NCBI GenBank assembly: GCA_000509225.1
Contig: BAOK01000001.1
Span: forward strand, 1,736,001-1,800,000
Source of the DNA: Parvibaculaceae bacterium Mf 1.05b.01
Lineage (GTDB): Bacteria; Pseudomonadota; Alphaproteobacteria; Parvibaculales; Parvibaculaceae
Length of the DNA stretch: 64,000 bases
Direction: 5' to 3'
The position numbers were made by a program, and so were the translations under genes. How positions within the stretch are numbered: position 1 is the stretch's first letter; every line of letters begins with the position of its first letter. This document shows, piece after piece, positions 22,556-34,574 of the stretch. Under the pieces are notes generated by a model, which was not told the DNA's origin, did not search any database, and saw nothing but the letters and a program-made list of their open reading frames with translations.

Positions 22556-22637
22556 CGGCGTATTTTGATTGACAGGTGGCGAGGATTGCCCAGCGCATGT
22601 GTGCCATGTGCCCAGGGCGAACTCAGGGATATTGACG

Positions 22638-22931
22638 ATGGAAAATGTGGCCTATTTTGGCGGCGCGGAGAATGCCCATGGCATTGCCTATAGCCGCAGT
22701 GCCTTCCATCAAATGTCACGCCTTACCAAACACCACCGGTCACAGCTGAAGGACGCTCTCATGTCCATGCGAAGCGACGACAGCAATGACGAAGTGCTTA
22801 CCGGGTCGCGGCGTACTCGGCGGCTTGATGATGGCTTGCGGTTTGTTTTTGAACGCAATGGAAGCGCGCTGACTGTGCTGGCCATCACAGATGCCGGCTT
22901 CCCGCCCCAAGCAAAGGACATTCCCCCATGA
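22638..22931 (+). CDS. RelE/HigB-like toxin, putative
   Basis: A 97-residue basic protein. Its C-terminal part (RRLDDGLRFVFERNGSALTV, about 68-85) follows the RelE/ParE pattern in which a core arginine-rich strand is followed by a second strand ending in a short hydrophobic run. The N-terminal part is less typical (YFGGAENAHGIAYSRSAFHQM). It is followed by the XRE-antitoxin gene with an ATGA overlap, toxin first as in higBA. The catalytic residues cannot be assigned with confidence, so this is a probable, not proven, toxin. Confidence 0.6.
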   Translation: MENVAYFGGAENAHGIAYSRSAFHQMSRLTKHHRSQLKDALMSMRSDDSNDEVLTGSRRTRRLDDGLRFVFERNGSALTVLAITDAGFPPQAKDIPP

Positions 22932-23683
22932 GTTCTTCATTAAAACAGGACAGCCGGTCTTCTGAGCCACAGCTGGTTTATGGGCCAGGCGGAGAAGCAC
23001 TCTATGCTCTGGTCCCAGTTGCTGACTATGAACAGCTCAAACGCGCCGCTGAGGATATTGTCGATATCAAAGCAGCGAATGAAGCCCTTCTGGGCGACCG
23101 TGCCGACCTTATTCCGGCAGAAGTCGTGCACCGGATCGCTGACGGAGAGAACCCGGTTCGCGTCTGGCGGGAACATCGCGGACTTAAAGGTGTCGAGCTT
23201 GCAAGAGCCGCCGGGATCAGTCCGGCCTATCTCTCTGAAATCGAGACCGGCAAGAAAGATGGCACGTTCCGAACCATGACGGCGATCGGCCACTGTCTCG
23301 GTCTGCCGCTTGATGACCTTGCGCCCATCGCAGATGACGACGAACGGGTGAGCCGCGAGCAGGCCGCGCGGATCAATGATATCCGCGCGCAGATCCGCTT
23401 TATTGAAGGTCTGATTGTCGGCCCCGGCGATTTCAGCACTGGTGCCGTGCGACAGGCTGCTGCCACACTCGCAACAGACGCGGAGCAGATGCTCACTGAG
23501 AACGGGGAGCAGTCTGACTGGCTGCCGCAGGTTCTGGAGGGGGTGGAAGAGATCCTCGACCTCATCGACCGTGCTGAGGGTGATATTATCGAGACCGCGC
23601 GCTCAACACGGGCCGATCTGGAAAAGGTGGTCACGCTCAGCGCTTTTCGGGCCCCGATAAACCCGTCAGGTGGCGCCACTTAG
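22928..23683 (+). CDS. XRE-family antitoxin-like protein with extra N- and C-terminal regions
   Basis: A 251-residue protein. The first 75 residues resemble the N-terminal module of HTH antitoxins (LVPVADYEQLKRAAEDIVDI, then PAEVVHRIADGENPVRVWRE). The helix-turn-helix is LKGVELARAAGISPAYLSEI (about 86-105) with ETGKKDG. A long C-terminal helical extension (about 135-251) continues with RAQIRFIEGLIVGPGDFS and a coiled-coil-like stretch. The extension is unusual for an antitoxin and may mediate oligomerisation or ligand control. It starts within the toxin-like stop (ATGA overlap). Confidence 0.7.
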   Translation: MSSSLKQDSRSSEPQLVYGPGGEALYALVPVADYEQLKRAAEDIVDIKAANEALLGDRADLIPAEVVHRIADGENPVRVWREHRGLKGVELARAAGISPAYLSEIETGKKDGTFRTMTAIGHCLGLPLDDLAPIADDDERVSREQAARINDIRAQIRFIEGLIVGPGDFSTGAVRQAAATLATDAEQMLTENGEQSDWLPQVLEGVEEILDLIDRAEGDIIETARSTRADLEKVVTLSAFRAPINPSGGAT

Positions 23684-26085: not shown

Positions 26086-27204
26086 TCACGCGACTTCCAG
26101 GTCATCGGGCAGTTTGCCTACATAGCGTGCCGATGGACGGATCAGGCGGCCTATCGCCTCCTGCTCCATAATATGCGCTGTCCAGCCTGCCACACGCCCA
26201 ACGGCAAAGGTTGGCGTGAAAGCATCGCGCGGGATCGCCAGCGCTTCCAGCAACAGCGCTGTATAGAACTCAACATTCGTATCGAGGGGTCTATGAGGTT
26301 TCAGTCCTTTGAGGACAGCCTTTGCAGTTGCTTCGACTTCTCTGGCAAAAGCTGTGCGCTCTTCCACGCCCTTTAGGCTTTTAATCGCCGAGCCCAAAAC
26401 ATCGGCCCGTGGATCGCGCACCCGGTAGACCCGATGACCAAACCCCATCAGCCGGTCGCCGGCCATCACCGCTTCCCGCAGCCAAGGTTCAATATTGTCG
26501 GGTGAACCAATATCATCGAGCATGTCCAACACGGGACCAGGTGCGCCACCATGGAGCGGGCCTTTGAGGGCACAGAGTGCTGCTAAGACAGAAGACACCT
26601 GCTCAGCTGCTGTTGAAGCGACCACGCGCGCGGTAAATGTGGACGCGTTCATGCCGTGGTCGCTTACTGTCACCAGATATTTATCCATCGCATCGACCGC
26701 GTCCGCGGCAGGGTCTTCGCCGTGCAACATGTGCAGATAATCTTCAGCGTGGGGGCTTGTGGCATCGGGTGCAACAGGCGCCTTGCCTTCGGCCGCGCGA
26801 GCCAGCGCCGCCACAAAGACCGGCATGGACGCAACCAAACGCACATGGGCTTCGGTTGCATGGCTATCTTGCAGCAGGCTCAATCCAATACGTAACGCTT
26901 CGGTAATTGTGAGGCCTTTGCCGGCTTCCAGAAGCGCTGGCACAAGATCGAATGCCTCGACACGGGCCCGCCCCAAGGCGTTACGGGCCTCTTCTGCGCT
27001 GCATGGCGTGCCTGCAGTTGACCAGAGTGCTGCTGTGACACCCTCGAAACTGAGCGTCTCCGCCAGGTCGGGCAAATCGCGCCCAGCAATGATCAACCGA
27101 CCCGCCGCGCCGTCGACGCGGCTCAAAGCCGTCTCTGCAGCCACGATGCCTTCAAGGCCACCTGCTACGCCCTTTGACGCTTTGGTCTCTTCGTTCTTGC
27201 TCAT
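26086..27204 (-). CDS. Citrate synthase family enzyme
   Basis: A 372-residue enzyme. Active-site segments are PLHGGAPGPVLDML (first His, oxaloacetate side), GFGHRVYRVRDPRA (second His and Arg) and NVEFYTALLLEAL, where many citrate synthases have NVDFY with a catalytic Asp; here Glu replaces it, which occurs in some branches. FAVGRVAGWTAHIMEQ follows. The protein is shorter than the hexameric GltA type and could make citrate or methylcitrate. Start ATG at 27204 was chosen because AGAAGGAGAA lies just upstream; the frame is open to 27342 without a good site. It is divergent from a second citrate-synthase-family gene. Confidence 0.92.
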   Translation of the reverse strand: MSKNEETKASKGVAGGLEGIVAAETALSRVDGAAGRLIIAGRDLPDLAETLSFEGVTAALWSTAGTPCSAEEARNALGRARVEAFDLVPALLEAGKGLTITEALRIGLSLLQDSHATEAHVRLVASMPVFVAALARAAEGKAPVAPDATSPHAEDYLHMLHGEDPAADAVDAMDKYLVTVSDHGMNASTFTARVVASTAAEQVSSVLAALCALKGPLHGGAPGPVLDMLDDIGSPDNIEPWLREAVMAGDRLMGFGHRVYRVRDPRADVLGSAIKSLKGVEERTAFAREVEATAKAVLKGLKPHRPLDTNVEFYTALLLEALAIPRDAFTPTFAVGRVAGWTAHIMEQEAIGRLIRPSARYVGKLPDDLEVA

Positions 27205-27322
27205 GTGCTTCTCCTTCTTGTCGATTGAGGGGACTTCAAGCGCGAGAGCCCATCTTGCTTGGTGGCCTGCCGCCTCTTCTTTCTGCAGTGCAACATGATT
27301 AGACTTGCGGATATCGTCAATC

Positions 27323-27339
27323 TTGATTAAGCTAATCAA
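27323..27339. promoter_or_regulatory. Perfect palindrome TTGATTA-AGC-TAATCAA between the two citrate-synthase-family genes
   Basis: A 7-base arm, 3-base spacer dyad ending three bases before the plus-strand start codon. It is a strong candidate operator for the DNA-binding N-terminal domain encoded immediately downstream and could regulate both genes. Confidence 0.7.
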
Positions 27340-27342
27340 CAT

Positions 27343-28569
27343 ATGAATAGTTCGGTCAACACACCATCCGAGGACGAGGCTCTTTACCTAAACGCCAAGG
27401 AAGCTGCGGCTGAATTGGGGGTGAGCCTGCCGACCCTCTATGCCTATGTGAGCCGGGACCTTATTCGCTCAGAACCCGTGCCGAACTCGCGCGCCCGTCG
27501 CTATCGGGCTGAAGATGTGCGGGGCCTCAAAGACCGGCGCACCTCCAAGCTGGATGAAGCGCGGGTCCCACCAGGAGATGCGGGCTACACACTCATTTCA
27601 GGGCAGCCGCTCCTTGATTCCGCAATCACACTGATTGCGGACGGACGTCTCTATTATCGTGGATCTGAGGTTACAGAGCTTGCAGCGCACAGTTCTCTGG
27701 AGAGCATCGCTACCCTGCTCTGGGACTGCGCCAGCGACCCCTTTCAGGACGATGTCCTGCCGCCCGAGCTACCCGACATTCCCGGCAACCTGCCGCCAGT
27801 GGACCGAGCCCTCACGGCGCTCCCCATCGCAGGAACGCTCGACACAACTCTTTTCAACACAACGCCGGAAGGGCTGGCTGCGACCGGCGTCAAGATTGTC
27901 CGCCTGGTTGCTGCGACCATTGCCGGTCAGGCTCCCTCTAGCGACCCAGTTCACCTGCAGCTGCAACGGGCATGGGGCGCTGATGCGACAACAGCGGACG
28001 CCATTCGCGCCGCCCTTGTTCTGTGTGCGGATCATGAATTGAATGCGTCTGCCTTTACCGCGCGCACAACAGCTGCCGCAGGCACCACACTCTATGGAGC
28101 GGTAATGGCGGGCATGGCCGCCCTACAGGGCTCCAAACATGGCGGTATTTCACGGCGTACGGAAAACCTGTTGCATGATCTGGCTGAAAGCGACAATCCA
28201 GCCGAAAATGTGCGCCAACGATTGAGAGATCAAGAACCTATGCCGGGCTTTTCCCACTGGCTCTATCCAAATGGGGACCCGCGGGCAAAAGTTTTGATGC
28301 GCCTCATGGCCGAACATCGCGGGGACACTAAGACCTTTGCGCAAATGAACCAGGTCATCGAAACCATGAAGAGCGCAGCGGGTATCAAACCCAATATAGA
28401 TCTGGCTTTGGCGGCGCTTTGTGTGACCTACGACCTTCCCCGGGGCTCAGCGCTGTCTCTCTTTGCGCTTGGCCGGACGGCTGGCTTAATCGCCCATGCT
28501 ATTGAACAACAAATGCGCCCAGGCCTGATCCGTCCCCGTGCGCGATATACCGGGCCCACCCCTCGATGA
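27343..28569 (+). CDS. Citrate synthase family protein with N-terminal DNA-binding (excisionase/MerR-like) domain
   Basis: A 408-residue fusion. Residues about 14-65 form a winged-helix module (LYLNAKEAAAELGVSLPTLY, then AYVSRDLIRSEPVPNSRARR and YRAEDVRGLK) of the excisionase/MerR type. Residues about 75-408 are citrate-synthase-like: HGGISRR (first His), GFSHWLYPNGDPRA (second His; Trp in place of the usual Arg) and NIDLALAAL (Asp retained). So H-H-D are present but the substrate-binding context has diverged, consistent with a metabolite-sensing regulator or a weakened enzyme. It is divergent from an ordinary citrate synthase paralogue, with a perfect palindrome in between. Function is inference. 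Confidence 0.88.
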   Translation: MNSSVNTPSEDEALYLNAKEAAAELGVSLPTLYAYVSRDLIRSEPVPNSRARRYRAEDVRGLKDRRTSKLDEARVPPGDAGYTLISGQPLLDSAITLIADGRLYYRGSEVTELAAHSSLESIATLLWDCASDPFQDDVLPPELPDIPGNLPPVDRALTALPIAGTLDTTLFNTTPEGLAATGVKIVRLVAATIAGQAPSSDPVHLQLQRAWGADATTADAIRAALVLCADHELNASAFTARTTAAAGTTLYGAVMAGMAALQGSKHGGISRRTENLLHDLAESDNPAENVRQRLRDQEPMPGFSHWLYPNGDPRAKVLMRLMAEHRGDTKTFAQMNQVIETMKSAAGIKPNIDLALAALCVTYDLPRGSALSLFALGRTAGLIAHAIEQQMRPGLIRPRARYTGPTPR

Positions 28570-29282: not shown

Positions 29283-30658
29283 GCGGCTGCCGACTCTCCA
29301 TCAGCATCAGCGGCAGCACCGGCTTTGGGTTCCTCGTGGATAACACGCTCAGCTGGAATGCTGGCACAAGCACATGTACCTACACCTTCACAACTTGTGA
29401 GAGACAATGTCCCGCCGACAGCCTCAACCATCGCGCGTGCCAGCGGCAGACCCAAACCGGTCCCAGACTTCGTCCGCGTGTGGGAGTTTTCGACCTGCTC
29501 AAAAGGCTCAAAAATATTCTCGATCTGGTCAGCTGGAATGCCGATGCCGGTATCACGAATCTGGATTTCCAGCGATCCATCTTCATTGAGCAGGGAGCAA
29601 ATGGTGATCGTGCCGCCGGGGTCGGTGAATTTGATTGCATTGGAAATGAGGTTCAACAGGACTTGCTGGAGGTGGCGCTCGTCGGCGCATATCATCGGCA
29701 CCGCCCCCTCCATCAGTTCGAAAGCGAAAGTGAGACCGGCTTCCTCGCCCGAGGGCTGCAACATTCTCAATACTCGAGAAGCTGTCATGGAGGGATCAAA
29801 TATATCTTCGTTCAGCTCAAAGCGACCCGCCTCGATCTTTGCCATGTCGAGGATCTCGTTGATCAAGCCTAATAGATGATCACCGCTCTCATATATGTCT
29901 TCAATGTATTCACGGTAGCGCGGCGGTTGCAGGGCACCGAAGGATTCCTTCCGCACCAGGTCGGCAAAGCCGATGATGGCATTAAGCGGCGTGCGCAGTT
30001 CATGACTCATGCTTGCCAGAAAGTTTGTCTTGCTGATGCTGGCCTGCTCTGCCCTTTCTCTCGCTATGTCGAGCTCCCGAGCCCGATCGCTCATGATATC
30101 TGCGACCGACGCCAACACATCCATCACACTTCCAACACCGAAATAGTCCTTGTCTTTGACGACAATGAACCCTTTCAACATTGAACCGTGACCAGCTGAG
30201 ACCAACATCTTATTGAGGGTCTCCGCCGCAAGGGACGCGGCCACAATCATCGGCTCGGCGTCCATCAGCGCAGATATGGGTTGGCGTCCGTATATCTCTT
30301 TACCGTAGAGAACGGTGTAGGTCAGAGTGAAGTCTTGCCGGTTGACAATGCCGACAATCTTCGCGTCCTTAAGAACTGGCAAATGCATGATGTCTGCATC
30401 AGCCATCAGCAGCCTGAACACTTCCGCGCATGGCATTTGCGGCGGAATGGGTTTCACCCTGTGCGCAATCTGCTCGGCACTACACCCTGATTTGATGCTC
30501 GACTTCTCACTGGTCACGCGATCACCCTCTACCACCGAACGCAACAAAGATTTGGGTAGGCGGCGCGCAATGAGTTCGTTGAAATCATTGCGGCCCGCGG
30601 CGATCTTCAACCGGTGGGCTTTCGCATATCTTAAGGAAACCGTCTGAAACGGTTGCAA
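29279..30658 (-). CDS. Soluble sensor histidine kinase with CBS domain pair
   Basis: A kinase of about 459 residues with no transmembrane segment. The N-terminal part (about 72-185) is a CBS pair (FRLLMADADIMHLPVLKDAK, then VGIVNRQDF and GFIVVKDKDYFGVGSVMDVL). HisKA is ASMSHELRTPLNAIIGFADL (phospho-His about 219). The HATPase has NLISNAIKF (about 336), DTGIGIP (about 371) and GTGLGLP (about 402). The tail is short and Ala-rich. CBS domains usually bind adenine nucleotides, so the kinase may sense energy charge. No response regulator lies beside it. The N-terminus is uncertain: the frame opens with TTG at 30658 without a convincing ribosome-binding site. Confidence 0.9.
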   Translation of the reverse strand: MQPFQTVSLRYAKAHRLKIAAGRNDFNELIARRLPKSLLRSVVEGDRVTSEKSSIKSGCSAEQIAHRVKPIPPQMPCAEVFRLLMADADIMHLPVLKDAKIVGIVNRQDFTLTYTVLYGKEIYGRQPISALMDAEPMIVAASLAAETLNKMLVSAGHGSMLKGFIVVKDKDYFGVGSVMDVLASVADIMSDRARELDIARERAEQASISKTNFLASMSHELRTPLNAIIGFADLVRKESFGALQPPRYREYIEDIYESGDHLLGLINEILDMAKIEAGRFELNEDIFDPSMTASRVLRMLQPSGEEAGLTFAFELMEGAVPMICADERHLQQVLLNLISNAIKFTDPGGTITICSLLNEDGSLEIQIRDTGIGIPADQIENIFEPFEQVENSHTRTKSGTGLGLPLARAMVEAVGGTLSLTSCEGVGTCACASIPAERVIHEEPKAGAAADADGESAAA

Positions 30659-30693
30659 TTCAAAAGTTTCATATCTCTGTCACATAGTTTAAT

Positions 30694-30748
30694 GAGGAAT
30701 GAAATGATTGCTTCGATAGCGGCGATATTTGGGGGGGGGGGGAGATTG
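30694..30748 (+). promoter_or_regulatory. Alternative start region with G12 tract upstream of MFS gene 1
   Basis: GAGGAA precedes an in-frame ATG at 30704. Translation from it passes through twelve G (30731-30742, four Gly codons) into the MFS frame, whose best start is ATG at 30749. The same G-tract plus AG acts as a possible ribosome-binding site for 30749. Length change in the tract would shift the upstream frame. Confidence 0.55.
30731..30742. repeat. Homopolymeric G12 tract
   Basis: Twelve consecutive G residues immediately before the first MFS gene; a candidate slippage tract, and also a known difficulty for sequencing. Confidence 0.85.
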
Positions 30749-31972
30749 ATGGCAACAAGCGACGGACAGACCGCGTCCAGCGGCTCACTCCGCTGGTACA
30801 TGGTGGGACAAGCCACCTGGTTTTCCAGTATCGGCCTACAATTTGTTCTGTTTCCCATTCTTGTCACCAATGTTCTTGACGAAACAGGCACGCGGCTCGG
30901 CCTTGCTCAAGTGTCCCTCTCCGCGCCGGCCCTTCTATTCATGCTCCTCGGAGGCGCAACAGCTGATCGGAGTGACCCGAGAACGATTTTGTTTCGCATC
31001 CACCTTTTTGCCGCGCTCCCCCCACTTGCACTAGCGTCGGCGCTCAACCTTGATTTTCTAAGCTTTGAGCTTTTGGTTGCGTATGGCGTGTGTATGGGCA
31101 CAGCAACCGCTTTTGCCATGCCGGCTCGTGACGCAACCCTCACGCGTGTTGCCGGATCAAATGTGCAGAAAGCCGTCACGCTCGCCCTGGCAGTTCAACA
31201 AACCACACAACTTGCAGGGATGAGCCTTGCGATATTCGCGAGCAAAGTCGGGTTTGCCCTTCTCTTCGCCATCCAATCACTGGTCATTCTTGGCGGGGGC
31301 CTCGCCGCGCGGCAGCTCCCCAAGAAAGAAGGCAATGACACCGTCCACCCGTCCCGTTTGCAAGCGATGAAGGATGGCCTGACCTATGTAATGAAATCAG
31401 ATGTGCTCGCGCCCGTGATCGCCGCCATGTTTGCTGTCGGCGTTTTTTACGTGGGCGCCATACTGGTTCTCTTCCCCCTGATTGTTCGGGACTTTTACCC
31501 AGGGGATGACGCCCTCGAACTCGGTGTCGCGAACATCTTCTTCTGGGGCGCCACCATTATCTCGACTCTCTTTCTGCTTCGCTTCGGACATGTTGCACGG
31601 CGCGGACGGGGCGTCATGATTGCCCTATTCTTGGGCGTACTCGTTGTCTTTGGATATACATTCGAACCACCCTACTGGATGTTCTGCCTTCTTGCCTTTG
31701 CGTGGGGTCTGGGCGCGGGGTGCGTCATGGTTCTTGGACGAACCATTGTTCAGTCGGAAGCCGATGAAGCTTTTCGCGGGCGAGCATTGTCCATCTTCCA
31801 GCTTGGTTTTGCCGGAGGCGCCCCGTTGGGATCCCTTATCATGGGTGTCCTTGCGGATGTTATCGGGCCCCACAGCACAATGTGGTTTTCCGTCATTGGG
31901 ATGACGCTGGTGCTCGCATGGCTTATGCTAAAATCTCGACTTTGGACGCTTCACGCCCACAACACTCTTTAA
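30749..31972 (+). CDS. MFS transporter, first of three tandem paralogues
   Basis: A 407-residue transporter with about twelve hydrophobic helices, of the EntS/MFS_3-like drug and siderophore exporter group. Shared signature segments are GGATADRSDPR (loop 2-3, about residue 68), MPARDATLTRVA (about 125) and ALSIFQLGFAGGAPLG (about 350). The start at 30749 aligns with the N-termini of its two paralogues (WYMVGQATWF about 14 residues in). A second in-frame start exists at 30704 across the G-tract. Substrate unknown; probably effluxes small hydrophobic compounds. It starts 91 bases from the divergent kinase gene. Confidence 0.9.
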   Translation: MATSDGQTASSGSLRWYMVGQATWFSSIGLQFVLFPILVTNVLDETGTRLGLAQVSLSAPALLFMLLGGATADRSDPRTILFRIHLFAALPPLALASALNLDFLSFELLVAYGVCMGTATAFAMPARDATLTRVAGSNVQKAVTLALAVQQTTQLAGMSLAIFASKVGFALLFAIQSLVILGGGLAARQLPKKEGNDTVHPSRLQAMKDGLTYVMKSDVLAPVIAAMFAVGVFYVGAILVLFPLIVRDFYPGDDALELGVANIFFWGATIISTLFLLRFGHVARRGRGVMIALFLGVLVVFGYTFEPPYWMFCLLAFAWGLGAGCVMVLGRTIVQSEADEAFRGRALSIFQLGFAGGAPLGSLIMGVLADVIGPHSTMWFSVIGMTLVLAWLMLKSRLWTLHAHNTL

Positions 31973-31997
31973 GAAAGATCCGGAAAGGACGGATGCC

Positions 31998-33206
31998 ATG
32001 CGCCCGATGAACCTCTACTTCGGCGGCCTTATCACCTGGTTCGGCGCCATTGGCATTCAAACAGTGCTCTTTCCATTCCTTGTCACCGGGCAGTTGGCGT
32101 TGGGGCCGGCTGAACTCGGCTTTGCCATGATGGCCCTCTTTCTTCCAACCATGTTGCTGATCATGGTCGGCGGCGCGACCGCAGATCATGTGGATGGGCG
32201 CCGCATCTTGATCCTGGTGCATTTCCTCTCAGGTCTTCCCGCGCTTGGCATTTTGACCGCGCATCTTATGGGCGCGCTCACCTATGAAGTCTTGATTGTT
32301 TATGCGCTTGCCATGGGTGTCGCTGGGGCTTTCATCATTCCGGCACGCGACTCTCTGCTCACCCATATTGCCGACGGGAAAATCCAAAAAGCCGTGATGA
32401 TTGCAACCATCTGTCAGTTTGGTGCACAGATGCTTGGCTTCGGACTTGCCGCCCTTGAACCCTATATCGGTATTGCGGTGATTTTCCTCTCTCAAGTCGC
32501 TCTCTTGTGGACCGGGGCTTTGCTCGCCCTTCGTCTGCCGACCCATGAACCCGAAGGGGCTACCGCTCCCTCCCTGGCAGCGATTATTGACGGGTTTCGA
32601 GAAGTTGCACGCGATCCACGTCTCCTCACCCCAACAGCGATGGTGTTTGGTATTGGGGTTTTGTTTTTTGGAACGGCTCAGGTGGTCCTGCCATTCATCG
32701 TGCGGGATGTTTTCCACGCCGGTGAAAACCTTGCGCGCGATATCGCGATCGTCAACATCTTCATGATGTGCGGCATTGTATTCACTGCGATGCTCATTGG
32801 GCGCATAGGCGGGATTGAACGCCAGGGCCGCGCGCTTGTTCTCGCACTGGGGTTCGGTGCCTTTGTGATGGCATCCTTCGGCTTCGTCCCGACTTTCTGG
32901 GCCCTGTCACTCGCGACATTTGCGTGGGGCTGCGGCGGTGGTGTCGCCATGACGATGAACCGCACCATCATTCAAGAATCAGCGCCTGCCAGTCATCGCG
33001 GACGTATCCTCGCGGTCTTTCAAATGGGCGTGCTGGGTGGTGGCCCCATCGGGGCTCTTATCTCCGGGTTCCTGATCGAACTGTGGGGGCCGCAGAATGC
33101 TGTGCTGCTGCCGGCTGCGGGCATGATTGTCATGCTGTTGCTGGTCTGCCTTATCAGCCCAATATGGAGCCTGCGCTCACCTGTCGTTTCCGCAGCGGCG
33201 GACTGA
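31998..33206 (+). CDS. MFS transporter, second tandem paralogue
   Basis: A 402-residue transporter of the same family as its neighbours, with GGATADHVDGR, IPARDSLLTHIA and ILAVFQMGVLGGGPIG in the same places. It lies 25 bases after the first gene with AAAGGA before the start, so it is co-transcribed. About 12 TM helices. Substrate unknown. Confidence 0.9.
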   Translation: MRPMNLYFGGLITWFGAIGIQTVLFPFLVTGQLALGPAELGFAMMALFLPTMLLIMVGGATADHVDGRRILILVHFLSGLPALGILTAHLMGALTYEVLIVYALAMGVAGAFIIPARDSLLTHIADGKIQKAVMIATICQFGAQMLGFGLAALEPYIGIAVIFLSQVALLWTGALLALRLPTHEPEGATAPSLAAIIDGFREVARDPRLLTPTAMVFGIGVLFFGTAQVVLPFIVRDVFHAGENLARDIAIVNIFMMCGIVFTAMLIGRIGGIERQGRALVLALGFGAFVMASFGFVPTFWALSLATFAWGCGGGVAMTMNRTIIQESAPASHRGRILAVFQMGVLGGGPIGALISGFLIELWGPQNAVLLPAAGMIVMLLLVCLISPIWSLRSPVVSAAAD

Positions 33207-33221
33207 CTGTTCGCCTGTCAG

Positions 33222-33281
33222 AAGGTACTGAACCTTGCGCTGAAGGTCCATTCAGCCTAGGCCTGTGGGGTATCCGTACCC
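33222..33281 (+). promoter_or_regulatory. Leader with three consecutive hairpins before MFS gene 3
   Basis: In the 87-base gap are three small stems: AAGGT/ACCTT (33222-33236), GCTGAA/TTCAGC (33239-33256) and GGGTA/TACCC (33268-33281), the last with a UCCG loop of the stable UNCG type. The AAGGA ribosome-binding site follows directly. Possibly an mRNA structure controlling relative expression of the third gene, or a processing site. Confidence 0.45.
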
Positions 33282-33293
33282 AAGGACTCCCCC

Positions 33294-34574
33294 GTGACGA
33301 CAGAAACCGACAATCAATCTGACCAGCATCGGCGTTCTGACTTACATTGGTATATGGGCGGTGTTTCAGCCTATTTCTTTTCCGGTGGCGTGCAGACGGT
33401 TCTCTTTCCCTGGCTTCTTGTCTTCGTCCTGAATGAAAGCGCTGCCCTCACCGGCATCGCGCAAATGTTCGCAATGCTTCCCATGTTGATCCTTGGGCTG
33501 TTTGGCGGCGCAACGGCCGACAGAAAAGAGCTCCGCCGCTATCTGATGCGGTTGCAGCTTGCAGCGGGCTTGGCGCCAGTCGCACTTGCTGTCCTCTATA
33601 TTGCCGGATATTTGAGCTACGAAGTCCTGATCGGGTACGCGATCGCGCTGGCAGCCCTCGGGGCGTTCACAATGCCTGCACGGGACTCATTGTTGAACAG
33701 AGTCGCCAATTCGAGCCTTGGGGGAAACATCCAGCAGGCGGTTTCCATGGCGACGGGCGCTCAGTTCATGTCACAGGTTCTCGGACTGCTGGTAGGTGGA
33801 CTTGCCACTGTCGTGGGGGCCGTTCCTCTCATGGCAGCACAATCGGCTTCGCTTATCGTCGCAGCCGTAACAACCATGCGGCTTCCCAAAGCGCCGCCGT
33901 CTGTCATACATGCGCCTCACGAAGATCGGCCCTCCCAGCTCAGCCAGATCCGCGAGGGCATCGACATTGTCTGGCAGAACGAGGATCTGCGCTCCGTCAT
34001 CATGATGATGTTCTTTGCGGGTATCCTCTATATCGGCGTCTTTATGGTGCTCTTCCCGATCCTCATTCGCGATGTTTATGGCGGCGACTCGTTCGAAATC
34101 GCCTTCATCAATATCTGCTTCTTTGGCGGGATCGGGGTCTCGTCCATGGTGCAGACGCGGCTGCGCCCGATCAAACGCCAGGGCCGCGCCATCATGCTGG
34201 CCATGTGTTCCGGCTCGATCATGATGGTGTTTGTGCATTTCCATCCGCCCCTTTGGGCGGTCTTCACACTGGCCCTTTGCTGGGGCCTGTCGTCGGGGGT
34301 GTCCATGAGCCAGTCCCGCTCGATTGTGCAAATTGCCGCCGTGGACAGTCATCGGGCACGGGTTCTGTCGGTTTTCCAGCTGGGCATGATGGGGGGCGGG
34401 CCGATTGGCGCGTTCGGCGCCGGCTTTGTGATCGAAGCCCTTGGACCGCTCAATGCGGTGCTTGTGCCGTCATCCTGCATGGTCGTGCTATGGCTCTTGA
34501 TCTTCTTCTTCACGAATATGTGGAAGATCGAAGCAGGAACCGGTCAGGCAGAGTCACAAAAGACGACCGCCTGA
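33294..34574 (+). CDS. MFS transporter, third tandem paralogue
   Basis: A 426-residue transporter starting at GTG (33294), with AAGGA 7 bases upstream. Family motifs recur: GGATADRKELR, MPARDSLLNRVA and VLSVFQLGMMGGGPIG. Twelve TM helices and a 20-residue cytoplasmic N-terminus. It ends just before a large hairpin separating it from the convergent enoyl-CoA hydratase gene. The three paralogues are clearly diverged from each other, so the duplication is old. Confidence 0.9.
   Translation: MTTETDNQSDQHRRSDLHWYMGGVSAYFFSGGVQTVLFPWLLVFVLNESAALTGIAQMFAMLPMLILGLFGGATADRKELRRYLMRLQLAAGLAPVALAVLYIAGYLSYEVLIGYAIALAALGAFTMPARDSLLNRVANSSLGGNIQQAVSMATGAQFMSQVLGLLVGGLATVVGAVPLMAAQSASLIVAAVTTMRLPKAPPSVIHAPHEDRPSQLSQIREGIDIVWQNEDLRSVIMMMFFAGILYIGVFMVLFPILIRDVYGGDSFEIAFINICFFGGIGVSSMVQTRLRPIKRQGRAIMLAMCSGSIMMVFVHFHPPLWAVFTLALCWGLSSGVSMSQSRSIVQIAAVDSHRARVLSVFQLGMMGGGPIGAFGAGFVIEALGPLNAVLVPSSCMVVLWLLIFFFTNMWKIEAGTGQAESQKTTA

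Follow-up and report, generated by a model that had tools for sequence, protein, structure and literature searches.

A winged-helix citrate synthase fusion from a Parvibaculaceae bacterium, the conserved operator-like element ahead of its gene, and its probable role as a local regulator

The window, a stretch of 64,000 nucleotides from an alphaproteobacterium of the Parvibaculaceae (contig BAOK01000001.1), carries two divergent genes of the citrate synthase (CS) family, with coordinates that agree with those given in an earlier note made from the sequence alone (Table 1). One of these encodes HTH-CS, a protein in which, as that note had recognized, a winged helix is fused to a CS domain. The Pfam family Citrate_synt (PF00285; cut-off 27) is matched with 192.9 bits by the fused protein and with 328 bits by its partner, and the MerR/excisionase-like character of the head is indicated by matches below the cut-offs together with its fold. 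Residues 15-63 score 26.4 bits against HTH_17 (cut-off 27), and fall short of both MerR (20.8; cut-off 28.2) and MerR_1 (19.3; cut-off 21.6), which counts against the view of HTH-CS as a dedicated regulator. Whole-model Foldseek/VIA comparisons cover mainly residues 82-397, and the HTH was therefore modelled alone. The head-only model matches the winged helices of excisionase (Xis), RacA, BldC, and SoxR with a Foldseek probability of 1.00 and E values of just 0.03-0.09, so that these matches are taken as likeness of fold only. Each position of the TLYAYVSR core of the winged helix is kept in 114 to 117 of the 117 aligned HTH-CS rows; a PDB sequence search with the HTH profile gave no match at E 0.01. 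The model of the whole protein, built on 12 rows, has a mean pLDDT of 83.1, and its body superimposes on Pseudomonas aeruginosa PrpC (6s6f) over 305 residues (Z 33.8, rmsd 2.5), with 2-methylcitrate synthases among the best fold matches. HTH-CS passes the cut-off of none of the 22 listed NCBIfam families (TIGR01800, 163 against 421.3; NF009005, 145.7 against 332), and in a 72-row quick tree without bootstrap, comprising partner CS, PrpC, and GltA-like rows as well, the HTH-CS rows fall on one side of a branch with SH-aLRT 100 and the partner CS rows on one side of a branch with SH-aLRT 99.

Table 1. Features of the divergent citrate synthase locus (positions within the window).
Feature	Position	Strand	Basis
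HTH-CS fused gene, winged helix plus CS domain, 408 aa	27343..28569	+	ORF, Pfam, tree
Winged-helix DNA-binding domain, residues 15-60	27385..27522	+	Pfam, alignment, head-only model
CS domain, residues 87-399, with His231, His266, His305, Arg314, Asp353, Arg378, Arg397	27601..28539	+	Pfam, alignment, model
Putative operator TCAATCTTGATTAAGCTAATCAA, 23 bp, three TTGAT/ATCAA-type half-sites; includes the dyad 27323-27339	27317..27339	.	comparison
Divergent partner, NF009005 citrate synthase, 372 aa, catalytic Asp to Glu (NVEFY)	26086..27204	-	NCBIfam, alignment
AAGGAG, likely ribosome-binding site of the partner	27211..27216	-	sequence

The partner had been described as an ordinary CS, a description that does not hold, since it is in the partner that a catalytic residue is changed. 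Glu occupies the position of the catalytic Asp in all 77 partner rows having a letter there (4 of the 81 are gapped), or in 73 of 73 when five contigs that were fetched twice are counted once, and the Asp is kept in nine CS rows of prpB loci and in two other CS rows. Besides this substitution, HADHE is replaced by DHGMN. The partner scores 400.5 bits against NF009005 (cut-off 332). Its longest ORF, which begins at 27342 and adjoins the dyad described below, was rejected in favor of the ATG at 27204, the likely start, which fits with the upstream AAGGAG. The best family score among the CS proteins of this genome, 473.9 bits, belongs to a third CS, GltA-like by eye, and the divergent pair thus need not supply the housekeeping enzyme. 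Elsewhere in the window lie three adjacent MFS-type transporter genes of the same direction (MFS_1, MFS_3; 30653-34574, plus strand) with the look of a tandem triplication, and, at 22569-23683 on the plus strand, a 120-aa ORF (RelE-like by eye, with no Pfam match) with an HTH_3/HTH_31 protein after it, the two possibly forming a pair of toxin-antitoxin type.

The perfect palindrome of the earlier note, TTGATTA-AGC-TAATCAA, is present at 27323-27339 and ends three bases before the HTH-CS start codon; it is the sole match at no more than two mismatches in the 64 kb, where 0.07 are expected. Reading upstream of relatives revealed that this dyad is part of a longer shared element, TCAAT-n-TTGAT-n7-ATCAA in the window, which lies 3 bp from the start codon of HTH-CS and 112 bp from that of the partner. 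A scan around the element for sigma-70-like promoters with spacers of 16-18 nt (MerR-type promoters have 19-20 bp) found none, so that promoter anatomy backs neither sign of control. Across the entire genome, 13 sites occur at no more than two mismatches (control, 1), comprising one perfect site, one with a single mismatch, and eleven with two. A wider regulon was considered and set aside; of the imperfect sites, the one that was placed, with a single mismatch, is located inside an ORF beside an Obg-like ORF (both identified by eye).

Among relatives the element follows the consensus (G/A)TCAATCTTGATTA-n-AATCAATAT, drawn from 111 distinct copies having at least 12 of the 15 fixed bases, 95 of them with a 5-nt spacer and 16 with a 4-nt spacer (one of the latter, L123, doubtful). 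Conservation of the palindrome ahead of homologues, a point raised in the earlier note, was examined in 80 named loci chosen by protein pattern and independently of the element, a set from which Caulobacter is absent. At least 13 of the fixed bases are present in 76 of these loci, and two more, L050 and L123, have 12; none of the 80 reaches 13 in shuffled controls (20 per locus). Over the 2,973 other segments of the same loci a score of at least 13 recurs only in L060 and L065, where the element has moved to a place farther upstream, ahead of a gene that intervenes between it and HTH-CS. The intervening gene of L060 (4951-5900) encodes a PLP-dependent enzyme (PF00291; threonine-dehydratase-like by eye), and that of L065 (4952-5900) appears similar by eye; were it indeed a threonine dehydratase, the 2-oxobutyrate it forms would go into propionyl-CoA. 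In further alphaproteobacterial loci 21 of 23 reach 13 bases, with 12 in L176 and 11 in the truncated L179, and 14 or 15 of the 15 are found on pAt of Agrobacterium fabrum C58 and on plasmids of Deinococcus (two), Azospirillum, Roseomonas, and Comamonas.

The seven pocket residues of Table 1, which by the numbering of the E. coli and pig enzymes are presumably the catalytic and oxaloacetate-binding ones, are all present in the window protein, including the His-His-Asp set noticed earlier (His266, His305, Asp353), and in 112 of the 117 aligned HTH-CS rows, or 107 of 112 after merging the five contigs present in duplicate; the set is incomplete in L078, L083, L086, L108, and L113. The GFSHWLY that replaces GFGHRVY in HTH-CS is likewise present as reported. 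It was presented as a departure, and proves to be no sign of a dead site: of the 117 HTH-CS rows just 3 retain the Arg (with P in 51, W in 10, G in 10, A in 9, and other residues in the rest), and Pro replaces it in 9 of 9 CS rows of prpB loci, one of which (L096) was checked as PrpC. Loss of this Arg therefore says nothing on catalysis, and its use as a mark of dead catalysis was rejected. A plain sensor would have no need of the full catalytic triad, and retention of the triad counts against a dedicated regulator; its near-universal presence leaves room for a working enzyme-regulator. Trigger enzymes such as PutA and BirA are enzymes that also regulate, and HTH-CS might similarly be both an autoregulator and an active enzyme condensing an acyl-CoA, perhaps not acetyl-CoA, with an oxoacid. 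This alternative, to which we assign a minor but real share of the probability, draws on the intact triad and oxaloacetate residues, on the 2-methylcitrate synthases among the fold matches, and on the Xanthomonadales copies that adjoin prpB (with prpC and acnD checked in L096). It is opposed by the low TIGR01800 score and by the HTH-CS paralogue of Bradyrhizobium sp. NAS80.1 (L078, 980-3721), which lacks His305 and Asp353 and still keeps the element, indicating that catalysis is not needed for a regulatory role there. It is opposed also by Caulobacter CitC, a possible orthologue that did not rescue an E. coli gltA mutant, whereas CitB did (PMC7083601).

The association of the element with HTH-CS extends to whole genomes. 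The exact pattern was found in 36 of 37 relatives that encode HTH-CS and in none of 24 that do not (8 of these 24 being less than 90% complete), and the reversed pattern was found in none of the 61. The one exception among the 37, G009, has a diverged copy. In all 36 a copy lies no more than about 90 bp from HTH-CS; it is the only one in 35, and the remaining genome, G014, has two. Exact copies occur as well in 18 of 21 genomes from other lineages, one each in 17. A copy that is mostly single and beside HTH-CS gives the regulator the look of a local, dedicated one. Counting against a dedicated regulator are four genomes with diverged copies only (G009, G327, G334, and G344) and G346, which has two exact copies, neither adjoining its two HTH-CS genes (one 2.9 kb off). 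The G346 copies are at L205 2260 and L206 2754, the first between a cupin gene and a beta-lactamase-family gene. In a quick tree of 86 HTH-CS rows the spacing of the element (4 or 5 nt) changes once: 15 four-nt rows form one side of a branch with SH-aLRT 99, 69 rows have five nt, and two are omitted. For the type of gene facing HTH-CS the same tree requires ten changes, counting three rows in which that type is not a known one. Since the spacing follows the HTH-CS tree while the targets change, it is improbable that the element is that of another regulator or of the targets themselves. MerR-like folds can have other roles, and the listed plasmid records, where annotated, name HTH-CS 'citrate synthase family protein' or 'citrate/2-methylcitrate synthase'; in keeping with both, HTH-CS could be a plain enzyme with the HTH as a protein-contact or oligomerization module and the dyad as the property of another regulator. 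We consider this very improbable, as the exact element is missing from all 24 relatives lacking HTH-CS and stays with HTH-CS through the ten changes of divergent gene.

Most of the genes that face HTH-CS belong to a few kinds. Of the 80 named loci, 45 have a partner CS as the divergent gene, 18 have a CoA-transferase III (Burkholderiales, Pseudomonas, Rhizobium, Azospirillales, and others), and 10, all Xanthomonadales, have PrpB; PrpB, PrpC, and AcnD were confirmed as equivalogs in L096, and the other nine prpB loci were assigned by likeness. Three loci have a LeuA/NifV-like synthase, which passes no cut-off in the two that were checked (L075 and L089); one (L078) has a citMHS citrate transporter followed by a PrpF-like gene; and three (L099, L113, and L123) have a gene of none of these kinds. 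Beyond the 80, a DUF2332 protein faces HTH-CS in L181, L183, and the Roseomonas plasmid L140, and this family, itself unknown, could be part of the same theme. In L183 a further DUF2332 gene lies on the far side of HTH-CS. In G014 HTH-CS faces a partner CS, and the second exact element lies about 27 kb away, with a CoA-transferase III (PF02515) whose longest ORF starts some 50 bp from it. Identity of this CoA-transferase to the enzymes opposite HTH-CS in nine loci of Trinickia, Paraburkholderia, and Burkholderia is 45-51%, as against 36-41% for ten further CoA-transferases of the set, and 4 of the 61 relatives encode a homologue at E <= 1e-40. An HTH-CS remnant was looked for beside it, and none was found. 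The second copy in G014 is the best link in trans between the element and a target. The CoA-transferase homologues of G040 and G042 have no such element, and the G040 case counts against regulation by HTH-CS, which that genome also encodes. That the element is instead a promoter or RNA element of the divergent pair and no operator, as its AT-richness and its position against a start codon might suggest, is highly doubtful, for it is kept beside unrelated divergent genes, recurs alone before the G014 CoA-transferase, and in its exact form is absent from all 24 relatives without HTH-CS.

The earlier suggestion that HTH-CS binds DNA and controls its partner is strongly supported by these comparisons, in which the element is kept across phyla, its spacing follows the protein tree, and a copy recurs in G014. 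The further suggestion that a metabolite is sensed would agree with the conserved pocket. On the strength of the linkage of the element, its co-inheritance, its spacing, and the second copy at a relevant gene, HTH-CS is very probably a dedicated autoregulator. Binding of the DNA, the sign of control, and the ligand are what we infer from the sequence comparisons. It appears likely that HTH-CS is a dedicated transcription factor whose winged helix would bind the 23-bp operator between the divergent genes and from there control both its own gene and the divergent metabolic gene. The most likely mode would be repression that is lifted or modified once the CS-derived body has closed around a ligand, a guess made by default since the element directly adjoins the start codon of HTH-CS itself. 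Given the intact pocket of most rows, the body probably senses oxaloacetate, an acyl-CoA, or a citrate-like product. Candidate ligands would be oxaloacetate together with an acyl-CoA, or a product of the citrate or 2-methylcitrate type, which are the most likely ones in view of the pocket type and of the acyl-CoA and tricarboxylate chemistry of the better-known targets. A bolder version, conceivable if rather unlikely, is that HTH-CS represents a widespread family of transcription factors with a still-working CS site, in which condensation itself or the closed ternary complex with oxaloacetate and acyl-CoA would be the signal, such that flux would be sensed and not one pool, with some ten couplings to tricarboxylate and acyl-CoA enzymes through one operator in several phyla.

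HTH-CS is not confined to the lineage of the window. At E <= 1e-55 its profile finds matches in 33 of 289 alphaproteobacterial genomes, two of which (G168 and G262) lack the HTH part. The taxa represented by the 80 named loci are Alpha-, Beta-, and Gammaproteobacteria, Chloroflexota, and Deinococcota, as well as, by the labels of MAG contigs alone, Rubrobacteraceae, Gemmatimonadetes, Acidobacteria, and 'Deltaproteobacteria'; the 595 stretches counted as relatives of the query may include plain citrate synthases. Regulation by HTH-CS would reassign a widely distributed 'citrate synthase' to the control of gene expression and name its probable operator. It would also provide a natural series from enzyme to sensor, in which the DNA site stays constant and the members include active-looking ones and one that has lost two catalytic residues (L078). 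HTH-CS would further be a candidate for sensing oxaloacetate, acyl-CoA, or citrate-type metabolites in a biosensor, and DUF2332 proteins, LeuA/NifV-like enzymes, and unnamed CoA-transferases would be pointed to as handling a related signal.

Regulators that have enzyme folds or enzyme activity include GabR/MocR, PutA, BirA, and NrtR, and we know of none among these with a citrate synthase fold. Among the top matches in the open-access literature, which leaves subscription journals mostly uncovered, no description of HTH-CS as a regulator was found. The head resembles the winged helix of the MerR family (SoxR, TMq 0.73, E 0.07), and differs from that family in lying below the Pfam cut-offs of MerR and MerR_1. 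The PrpR protein of Xanthomonas citri, compared by its authors with Salmonella PrpR, is a local regulator that adjoins prpB and binds a palindromic site, as the HTH-CS of the prpB loci would; the PrpR site is GTTGCAA-N2-TTGCAAC, which differs from the element, and membership of PrpR in the HTH-CS group is unsupported (PMC12153269). Caulobacter CitB and CitC (CCNA_03757/03758) are described as paralogous CS genes, in a text that does not contain the term 'helix-turn-helix' (PMC7083601). Like the pair in the window they are two consecutively numbered CS-like genes besides a separate main CS, and an active CitB with an inactive CitC in E. coli is as the window pair would predict. From the consecutive locus tags, orthology with the window pair is plausible; identities of such pairs to GltA loosely match the published ones and prove nothing on the orthology of CitC. 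Should CitC turn out to be an HTH-CS member, the present findings may bear on why it does not act as a citrate synthase. A close parallel is BzdR, which consists of an N-terminal DNA-binding domain and an effector-binding domain derived from shikimate kinase, loss of enzyme activity having been essential according to the abstract (PMC3602430). Enzyme-derived regulators are thus already known as a kind, and HTH-CS shares with that kind an enzyme-derived body under an HTH head and a linked, conserved operator-like element. Unlike BzdR, HTH-CS is built on another enzyme fold, and its catalytic residues are kept in nearly all rows.
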